Source: Ferrovibrio sp. MS7
GTDB taxonomy: Bacteria; Pseudomonadota; Alphaproteobacteria; Ferrovibrionales; Ferrovibrionaceae
Assembly: GCF_038404985.1 (NCBI RefSeq)
Contig: NZ_JBBKBA010000003.1
Span: 1 to 64,000, forward strand
DNA: 64,000 bases
Direction: 5' to 3'
The notes under the pieces are model-generated. The model was given only the letters and a program-made list of their open reading frames with translations. It did no database searches and was not told the origin of the DNA. Positions within the stretch are counted from its first letter, which is position 1. Each line of letters opens with the position of its first letter. Below are positions 32,662 to 35,609 of this stretch, in pieces. The position numbers were made by a program, and so were the translations under genes.

Positions 32662-33039
32662 ATGGCCCGCGTTACCGTTGAAGATTGCGTCATCAAGGTT
32701 CCGAACCGCTTCGAGCTGGTGATGCTCGCCGCCCAGCGTGCCCGTGCCGTGTCGGCTGGCGCGCCGCTGACCGTGGACCGCGACAACGACAAGAACCCGG
32801 TGGTGGCCCTGCGCGAAATCGCTGATGAAACCGTGGATATCGAAACCCTGCGCCAGCGCATGATCGGCGGCATGCAGAAGCATGTCGAGGTCGATGAGCC
32901 GGAAGAGGACAACATGGCCGCCCTGATGGAATCGGCCGAGTGGTCCGGTGTTCAGCAGGCAGACGACCTGGCCGAGGGCATGGGCATCGAGGAAGACGGC
33001 GCCGACGAGCCCGACCTTGGGGATGCCGTCGAGGAGTAA
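32662..33039 (+). CDS. rpoZ: RNA polymerase omega subunit
   Basis: Omega helps fold and recruit the beta' subunit. The first 60 residues carry the family core ([20 protein letters not shown], then [10 protein letters not shown] and [13 protein letters not shown]). The 125-residue protein has a long acidic C-terminal tail (many Glu/Asp), as in many Alphaproteobacteria. Its location before the Rsh gene is the classical rpoZ-spoT arrangement, here interrupted by a 268-bp repeat element. Confidence 0.95.
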
Positions 33040-33057
33040 TCCTCGTCCTTTCGACCG

Positions 33058-33325
33058 AGAGCATGATGACACCATATTGACGCACTACGCCGAGGTGAAT
33101 TTGGTCTTCGGGTAGGAGTGCGGCGCAGTGCGTAGTGGGACTACGGGCAAGCCGCACGACGCCCCCGAAGGCCAAATTCGCCCGGCCCGGAGGGTTTCGT
33201 CTGAAGGCGGCATCCACGTCGTCGAAGCGCTTGCAGGTACCCACCAGGTACCTGCCGCGCGCCTCTCCTAGTGGCTACCGCCTCCAGACGAAACGTAGGG
33301 CATCAATATGGTGTCATCATGCTCT
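33058..33325. mobile_element. 268-bp element with perfect 23-bp terminal inverted repeats
   Basis: The left end (33058-33080, beginning AGAGCATGATG) is repeated exactly in inverted orientation at 33303-33325. Inside are further inverted pairs: CACTACGC (33083) with GCGTAGTG (33130); GCAGGTACC (33233) with GGTACCTGC (33247); and 17 bases at 33194-33210 matching 33278-33294 with one mismatch. No open reading frame of note is present and I see no target-site duplication. The layout is that of a non-autonomous MITE or an intergenic palindromic repeat. It fills most of the gap between rpoZ and the Rsh gene. Confidence 0.75.
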
Positions 33326-33356
33326 GGAATCATTCCAGGGTCTTGCCCTGGACTAA
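33326..33356 (+). promoter_or_regulatory. Two small palindromes after the repeat element
   Basis: TGGAATCATTCCA forms a short palindrome, and CCAGGG-TCTTG-CCCTGG follows at 33335-33351, then ACTAATTTT. Together they resemble a weak terminator or stabilising hairpin placed 60-80 bases before the Rsh start. Confidence 0.35.
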
Positions 33357-33416
33357 TTTTCGCCCAAAATTCAGGGTGTTGTGAAACCGTTTCCCGTTGA
33401 AGGAGGGCGGGACGGC

Positions 33417-35609
33417 ATGGCGCGCGCTCGGATTCTGCGGCAGGTTGAATTGGTGGAGAAGGTTCTGGCGTACGATCCCGGCGCCAACGAGGACCTGTTG
33501 AACCGCGCCTACGTGTTTTCCATGAAGGCGCATGGCGCCCAGATGCGCGCCTCCGGCGACCCGTATTTCTCCCATCCCGTGGAAGTGGCCGGCATCCTCG
33601 CCGGCATGAAACTCGACGACAAGACCATTGCCACCGGCCTGCTGCATGACACGCTGGAAGACACCGTGGCGACGCCGGTCGAGATCGAGAAGAATTTCGG
33701 CGGCGATGTGCTGCGCCTGGTCGACGGCGTCACCAAGCTGTCGCGTATCGAGCAGCAATCCGACCGCACGCGGCAGGCGGAGAATTTCCGCAAGCTGCTG
33801 CTGGCGATGTCGAACGACATCCGTGTGCTGCTGGTGAAGCTGGCTGACCGGCTGCACAACATGCGCACGCTGCATTACATCAAGACGCCGGAAAAGCGCA
33901 AACGCATCGCCAAGGAGACGATGGAGATCTACGTTCCGCTTGCCGACCGCATCGGCATGCAGGAACTGAAGGAGGAACTGGAAGACCTGGCCTTCGCCGA
34001 ACTCAATACCGATGCGCGTGCCTCGATCATCACGCGCCTGGAACAGTTGCGCAGCGAAGGCGGCAGCCTGACCCAGCGCATTTCCGACAAGATCAAGCGC
34101 ACCCTGGCGGAACAGGGGCTGGATGCCTGGGTCTCGGGCCGCGAGAAGCGCCCATTCTCGATCTGGGAGAAGATGCAGCGCAAGAACATCCCGTTCGAGC
34201 AGCTTTCCGATATCATGGCCTTCCGCATCGTGGTGCGCGATATCACCGCCTGCTATCAGGCACTGGGCATCATTCACGGCACCTGGCCCTCGGTGCCCGG
34301 CCGCTTCAAGGATTATCTCTCGACGCCGAAGCAGAACGGCTATCGTTCGCTGCATACCACGGTGATCGGGCCTGAGAACAAGCGCATCGAAATCCAGATC
34401 CGCACCCAGGACATGCATGAAGTGTCCGAACTCGGTGTCGCGGCGCATTGGCAATACAAGCAGGATGGCAATGGCGGCGGCACCGCGCCGGATGCCGAGG
34501 CGAAGCAATATCGCTGGCTGCGCGAATTGCTTGAAATCCTGGAGCAGGCATCCGATCCGGAAGAATTCCTCGAGCATACCAAGCTCAACATGTTCCAGGA
34601 TCAGGTGTTCTGCTTCACGCCGAAGGGCGACCTGATTGCCCTGCCGCGCGATGCCACGGTGGTTGATTTTGCCTATGCGGTGCATTCCGGGGTCGGCGAT
34701 ACGGCGGTGGGCGCCAAGGTGAACGGCCGCGTGGTGCCGCTGCGCACCGTGCTGCGCAATGGCGACCAGGTGGAAATCCTGCGCTCCAAGGTGCCGGCGC
34801 CGCATCCGAACTGGCTCAACTTCGTCAAGTCGGGTCGTGCCAAGTCGTGCATCAACCGTTTCATCCGCCAGCAGCAGCGCGGCCAGTATGTCGAGCTCGG
34901 CAAGGCAATCCTGAAGAAGACCTTCCATGAGCGCGAGCAGCAGCTCACCGATAAGGGTCTGGAAGCAGCGGTGAAGGTGCTGAAGCTGCGCGGTGTCGAC
35001 GACGTATATGTCGGCGTTGGCGATGGCTCGATCACTGCACGCCAGGTGCTGCATATCGTCTATCCCGGCGAGAAGGAAAACGACCGCGAGGCCGACAAGC
35101 TGCCGCCGCTGCCGCGCCAGCAGCACAAGGCGCCGGAGGCGAAGCATAACGGCATCCCGATCCGCGGGCTGATCCCCGGCATGGCGATGCATATTGCCGG
35201 CTGCTGCCATCCGTTGCCGGGAGACCGTATCGTCGGCATCGTCACCACCGGCAAGGGCGTCACCATCCACACCATCGACTGCGAGGCGCTGGGCCAGTTC
35301 TCCGACCAGCCGGAACGCTGGCTCGATCTCGCCTGGGACGCCCCGGGCGACGGCGACAAGAGCGGCCAGGTGCATTTGGGCCGCGTCATCCTGCTGGTGG
35401 CCAACGAGCCGGGTTCGCTCTCGGCGCTTAGCACGGTGATCGCCAAGCACAAGGGCAATATCACCAACCTGAAGATCACCAACCGGACCCAGGAATTGTT
35501 CGAGATGTATGTCGATGTCGAAGTGCGCGACGTGAAACACCTCTCGAACATCATCGCCGCGCTGCGGGCCACCCCGAATATCAGTAGTGTCGAGCGCGCC
35601 AGGGGGTAA
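33417..35609 (+). CDS. Bifunctional (p)ppGpp synthetase/hydrolase, RelA/SpoT family
   Basis: The 730-residue Rsh makes and degrades the stringent-response alarmone. The hydrolase HD domain looks active (FSHPVEVAG, His77-Asp78 in LLHDTLEDT, LVKLADRLHNMRTL). The synthetase domain contains PKQNGYRSLHT and the HEVSELGVAAHWQYK end. TGS (about 390-455) and ACT (about 655-730) regulatory domains complete it. The start is ATG 33417 with AGGAGG at 33401-33406; an in-frame GTG at 33381 is less likely. It is the only Rsh in view, as expected in Alphaproteobacteria. Confidence 0.95.
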   Translation: MARARILRQVELVEKVLAYDPGANEDLLNRAYVFSMKAHGAQMRASGDPYFSHPVEVAGILAGMKLDDKTIATGLLHDTLEDTVATPVEIEKNFGGDVLRLVDGVTKLSRIEQQSDRTRQAENFRKLLLAMSNDIRVLLVKLADRLHNMRTLHYIKTPEKRKRIAKETMEIYVPLADRIGMQELKEELEDLAFAELNTDARASIITRLEQLRSEGGSLTQRISDKIKRTLAEQGLDAWVSGREKRPFSIWEKMQRKNIPFEQLSDIMAFRIVVRDITACYQALGIIHGTWPSVPGRFKDYLSTPKQNGYRSLHTTVIGPENKRIEIQIRTQDMHEVSELGVAAHWQYKQDGNGGGTAPDAEAKQYRWLRELLEILEQASDPEEFLEHTKLNMFQDQVFCFTPKGDLIALPRDATVVDFAYAVHSGVGDTAVGAKVNGRVVPLRTVLRNGDQVEILRSKVPAPHPNWLNFVKSGRAKSCINRFIRQQQRGQYVELGKAILKKTFHEREQQLTDKGLEAAVKVLKLRGVDDVYVGVGDGSITARQVLHIVYPGEKENDREADKLPPLPRQQHKAPEAKHNGIPIRGLIPGMAMHIAGCCHPLPGDRIVGIVTTGKGVTIHTIDCEALGQFSDQPERWLDLAWDAPGDGDKSGQVHLGRVILLVANEPGSLSALSTVIAKHKGNITNLKITNRTQELFEMYVDVEVRDVKHLSNIIAALRATPNISSVERARG

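Follow-up and report, generated by a model that had tools for sequence, protein, structure and literature searches.

A gene-less mobile element near rsh whose predicted fold and length are conserved more than its sequence

The 266-bp stretch between rpoZ and rsh in a Ferrovibrio-related genome is a copy of a mobile, MITE-like element without a recognised gene, whose predicted folded shape and length, more than its sequence, have been kept in many Proteobacteria. It lies in the 64,000-nucleotide stretch of DNA that was analysed here (hereafter the window; positions 1 to 64,000 of contig NZ_JBBKBA010000003.1, assembly GCF_038404985.1, Ferrovibrio sp. MS7). The original prediction described a 268-bp element with 23-bp perfect terminal inverted repeats and a branched fold, and interpreted it as a MITE or a complex intergenic repeat. 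We found that it was right about a mobile element. The mobile unit is, however, one base shorter at each side, since the outermost A/T belong to the target dinucleotide. The coordinates are summarized in Table 1. Among the ORFs listed, only mechanical ones run across the element.

Table 1. Features of the element and its surroundings (positions in the window).
Feature	Position	Strand	Remarks
Mobile element	33059..33324		266 bp; no gene recognised; limits from the empty site and comparison with other copies
Left target dinucleotide	33057..33058		GA here; TA in 7 of 8 copies of this genome; empty site CTAG
Right target dinucleotide	33325..33326		TG here; TA in 7 of 8 copies
Left terminal inverted repeat	33059..33080	+	22 perfect bases
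Right terminal inverted repeat	33303..33324	-	22 perfect bases
Perfect match of the original prediction	33058-33080 / 33303-33325		23 bp
Outer inverted pair	33058-33089 / 33294-33325		32 nt, 94% complementary
Inner inverted pair	33194-33217 / 33271-33294		24 nt, 88%
Arm A	33089..33186	+	about 98 nt; model hit 33106-33170 (covariance models, 82.0 and 81.3 bits); TAGGAG at 33113-33118
Predicted mini-hairpin	33187..33193		CCGGAGG, between the arms
Arm B	33194..33294	-	about 101 nt; same motif on the other strand; model hit 33211-33277
Terminator-like hairpin	33334-33352		just downstream of the element
rpoZ	32662..33039	+	upstream gene; stop codon 33037-33039, 19 bases from the element; omega subunit, TIGR00690 above its cut-off
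rsh	33417..35609	+	downstream gene; RelA/SpoT family, TIGR00691 above its cut-off; ATG chosen from the relatives' alignment, 92 nt after the element; listed ORF starts with GTG at 33381

Both strands of the element fold far better than 200 dinucleotide shuffles (z -14.8 and -16.8), and none of the 200 shuffles reached the observed value. No Rfam family reached its gathering score in the window element, where one match had an E value of 0.45, or in the elements of 14 further loci. The best of the latter was a weak full-length match of an arm (258-355 of one locus) to RF02966 (DUF3268 RNA), with 30 bits and an E value of 0.015 against the 65.3 bits needed, while a tRNA found at another locus lies outside the element.

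The element is not single copy. A DNA search of the genome revealed four further near-full copies at 79% identity as well as fragments, and folding around a fragment hit showed a second subfamily whose ends and stems are unrelated but whose fold is the same. A covariance model built from 14 arms found 16 arms, that is 8 elements of 261-270 bp, five of the GAGC/GACC type and three of the GGGTCC type. The arm model also finds copies with unrelated stems that the plain DNA search of the window element did not report as full copies. Seven of the eight copies are flanked by TA on both sides. In addition, a lone 30-bp copy of the window element's end lies next to CTAG on contig C4 of this genome (about position 197500), without an arm-model match.

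In a genome labelled as the same species (G061), all eight orthologous sites were found, four of them uninterrupted and four carrying the element. The empty sites read CTAG in three cases and CCAG in one. At the site of the window copy the match to G061 is 100% (rounded) over 320 bp, with one mismatch in the 60 bp aligned, at the left dinucleotide, where the query carried the window's own letter. None of the nine other genomes of the genus examined carries the element in this rpoZ-rsh spacer: eight were aligned, one of which (G007) also reads CTAG there, and the ninth (G003) gave an uninterrupted flank match. The insertion is therefore recent in the window's lineage, or it was replaced in G061 by an empty allele. 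Interestingly, both target dinucleotides of the window copy deviate from TA, and deviations on one side are also seen in other copies.

The branched inner fold, which had also been noted in the original prediction, proves to be the conserved part of the family. Of 88 full-looking elements that were folded, 79 are 255-272 bp long. Sixty-seven fold as an outer stem (median 31 nt), an arm, a small hairpin and a second arm (arm median 98 nt), 20 as two arms without a predicted mini-hairpin, and 1 otherwise. Of the nine longer ones, six (309-322 bp) have one arm lengthened by about 38-54 nt, while the other arm keeps its usual length. These figures apply to full-looking copies only, since 8 copies of one set (173-288 bp, mostly shortened), 6 of a second set (170-260 bp, shortened or doubtful), duplicate and orthologue loci and one sequence holding an N were left out. 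Each arm tip carries TAGGA-[7 bp]-GCA-[hairpin]-AA-[7 bp]-GACG or close variants, in opposite orientation in the two arms.

The stems drift with compensatory changes. On 138 arms 90.9% of 2782 cells are paired and 754 cells change on both sides, against 225 in shuffles, while slid controls collapse. Since palindromic DNA alone can give compensation, we looked at the type of mismatch. In each arm's own reading strand, G-T mismatches outnumber A-C mismatches 173 to 31. With a symmetric aligner on the outer arm stem of 124 of these arms the ratio is 55 to 7 (p 2e-10), and in 42 elements it is 15:4 on plus-strand arms and 20:3 on minus-strand arms. On 25 arms from other classes it is 27 to 5. The size of the effect is uncertain, because many sequences are related and not independent and because, except with the symmetric aligner, the alignments were fitted to an RNA model that favours G-U. 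Within the species, only 10 substitutions separate the four copies shared with G061 and none is paired with a second change, which is too little for a test. Because the two arms lie on opposite strands, a strand-biased mutation pressure does not explain the excess of G-T, and it suggests selection on each arm as a folded single strand.

The family is widespread. A strict motif of 20 fixed letters gave 83 stretches in 84,980 species genomes. By title or genus nearly all of these appear to be Alphaproteobacteria (Ferrovibrio, Mesorhizobium, Rhizobium, Ensifer, Sphingomonas, Sphingopyxis, Roseibium, Kiloniellaceae and others), and three are titled Proteobacteria bacterium. Sixty-two of the 83 stretches were examined further. 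Two come from one Armatimonadetes MAG and score 41.6 and 32.9 bits with the arm model as single arms only, which may reflect transfer, mis-binning or chance. With a broader model, 51 of 385 genomes and 43 of 276 genera of the class match at E 1e-5, and in a phylum sample 31 of 398 genomes match, 15 of the same class and 16 of other classes. At most 13 candidates per genome were scored in these two samples, hence copy numbers are lower bounds. Twenty loci from 10 of the 16 genomes of other classes were read; by eye most show the same fold, with longer CAAGGCG...CAACGCCG feet, and end pairs were found in 19 of 20, with TA next to at least one end in 14 of the 19. In named plasmid records, an Agrobacterium copy (95% of the query; both arms score) is sound, whereas a Halomonas match covers 42% with one scoring arm, a Comamonas match covers 99% at 68.7% identity but is not reported by the broader model, and matches in Variovorax (40%) and Ensifer (21%) are partial. 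The window element itself has no blastn match in the plasmid or phage records. A looser pattern gave 40 stretches in viral contigs, but the arm model reported only two weak hits, neither at a pattern match, so these look like chance. ORF calling placed 47 of 61 sites outside ORFs (5 skipped); it is unreliable in GC-rich DNA, where a first pass mis-called the window itself, and we draw no conclusion from it.

Most ends touch TA. In a set of 49 of 67 loci, TA lies next to 45 left and 45 right ends, with Y-TA on the left in 42 and TA-R on the right in 41; of the remaining loci, 11 had no ends found, one of them an empty site, and 7 were duplicates, orthologues or copies with displaced ends. In a second set, with ends found for 52 of 60 anchors, 31 have TA on both sides, 16 on one and 5 on none. 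It should be noted that end calling favoured TA in both sets. The end sequences differ widely (GAGC, GGGTC, GCCCGCATTTCTCAC, CCAA and GTACCC types).

A possible mobiliser was identified for one end type. In G003, an 846-bp insertion sequence flanked by TA has the ends GGGTCCGGACCCATTA and GGGTCCGGACTCATTA and encodes DUF4096 and DDE_Tnp_1 parts (IS5 family, NF033580) in two overlapping frames; no arm-model match is listed on its contig. Its first 15 bases are identical to one end each of two copies in the window genome and one in G003, although only one of the two ends of each matching element reaches 15 bases. This concerns the GGGTCC subfamily only, and no donor was found for the GAGC ends of the window copy. 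Of 30 further DUF4096 loci, 11 gave end pairs under a rule that demanded TA on at least one side; 8 have TA on both, and one reads GGGTCCGTACTCAATTA. At another locus a DUF4096 insertion sequence seems, by eye, to be inserted at the CTAG of an arm foot of one of these elements, and the arm foot itself often contains the insertion target. No DUF4096, DDE_3 or Y1 transposase was found in the window genome (99.9% complete), nor in G061, G007, G014 and G016, but the latter four are only 72-87% complete. The association with DUF4096 across genomes is weak, with 7 of 12 genomes with and 2 of 5 without the element, and 20 of 40 with and 13 of 40 without in a wider set, where the latter 40 were genomes not listed as positive.

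Taken together, we consider it likely that the window copy belongs to an old, non-autonomous element family and was inserted here in the window's lineage. Movement in trans by visiting insertion sequences is the simplest fit. We infer that the ends are used by TA-inserting DDE transposases, mainly IS5-family DUF4096 ones, possibly of the IS427-like group. We further infer that the fixed geometry is read by a protein or RNA machinery, as RNA or as single-stranded or cruciform DNA during movement. Because the arms are inverted copies, whichever strand is transcribed or exposed presents one correctly oriented arm.

An origin from IS630/Tc1-mariner throughout appears unlikely. TA duplication in CTAG may be typical of that superfamily, and two DDE_3 loci (in the genomes G004 and G023) begin with GAGC next to TA, loosely like the ends of the window copy. 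However, DDE_3 was found in only 4 of 17 genomes (G001, G023 and G026 with the element, where no matching ends were found, and G004 without), and not in the window genome, G003, G007, G014, G016 or G017. Moreover, the one long identical donor end is IS5-family, though a donor since lost cannot be excluded. It is also rather doubtful that these are ordinary MITEs, that is internally deleted insertion sequences whose inner fold is a functionless by-product of palindromic DNA. The ends, the TA targets and the lack of a recognised gene would fit. Nevertheless, arm motif, arm length and total length persist while stems and ends have drifted beyond recognition, the core is shared between copies with unrelated ends in one genome, and double-stranded palindromes alone do not predict the excess of G-T over A-C.

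A REPIN-like element moved by a RAYT is very unlikely. Two inverted hairpins with a conserved foot and the single-strand signal on both strands would be in line with it, and all four of the 17 genomes with a Y1 domain (G003, G017, G023, G059) carry the element. But Y1 was not found in 8 of 12 element-bearing genomes (the window genome, G061, G001, G007, G009, G014, G016, G026), and TA target duplication and long outer inverted repeats do not appear to be features of REPINs. REPs of the GTAG and CGTC type are 20-40-bp hairpins, CGTC stems being 8-9 bp with AT pairs at positions 1 and 2 (PMC3733652), while here the arms are about 98 nt above a ~31-bp outer stem and the stem pair next to the foot is G-C in 121 of 134 distinct arms. 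In common are the inverted hairpin pairs with a conserved foot; no dedicated transposase is known for CGTC repeats, and two REP dimer families set inside palindromes have been noted (PMC3733652). Finally, a fixed regulatory RNA of the rpoZ-rsh operon can be rejected despite the stable fold before a RelA/SpoT gene, since the site is empty in the nine other genomes of the genus examined and copies lie elsewhere in the genome.

The original prediction also suggested that the element may change rsh expression or uncouple it from rpoZ. The copy lengthens the rpoZ-rsh spacer by about 268 nt and adds a large stem to any read-through transcript. Just downstream lies the terminator-like hairpin TCCAGGGTCTTGCCCTGGA with the tail CTAATTTTCG, whose stem core is also present in the empty spacers of G061 and G007; as 0.6 such sites are expected per shuffled region, this may be chance. 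No promoter-like site pointing to rsh was found by a simple scan. Without expression data, an effect on rsh is possible but cannot be claimed, and the copy is not conserved at this site.

The element meets the general definition of a MITE, and we compared it with previously described families (PMC2229807, PMC3733652; see also PMC10969869, PMC2245857). Correia/NEMIS, ERIC and RUP are likewise gene-less, with TA at the termini, target duplication and stem-loop transcripts, and RUP is proposed to be moved by the transposase of IS630-Spn1 (PMC2229807). They are described as about 100-200 bp and for single groups (Neisseria, enterobacteria, pneumococcus), while the element described here is ~266 bp, has two arms with one conserved inverted motif and variable ends, and occurs in several classes. 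The CIR elements of Caulobacter/Brucella are also two-armed and found in Alphaproteobacteria. However, they are about 110 bp, their arms are joined by a linker without pairing of the two ends, and they carry GANTC at a terminal loop (PMC2229807), whereas here the ends pair over about 31 bp and the apical loop is GGG-like. We found no description of this family in the open-access literature searched.

Bacterial MITEs are commonly taken for decayed insertion sequences of limited range. Here, a gene-less element keeps its length and branched fold in several Proteobacteria classes while losing most sequence identity and changing its ends. It is possible, though this remains a tentative reading, that it is a proteobacterial selfish element defined and selected by shape, a constant cloverleaf with two inverted copies of one hairpin motif that is read as single-stranded RNA or DNA on whichever strand is exposed. 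Such an element would change its terminal repeats over time to exploit whatever TA-inserting transposases (IS5-like, possibly IS630-like and others) pass through, while an unknown host or element factor reads the arm tips at fixed geometry. Whether a mobile element can be selected for nucleic-acid shape, and which protein or RNA process reads it, thereby becomes a testable question. Shape and length, more than sequence or ends, are what the family has kept.
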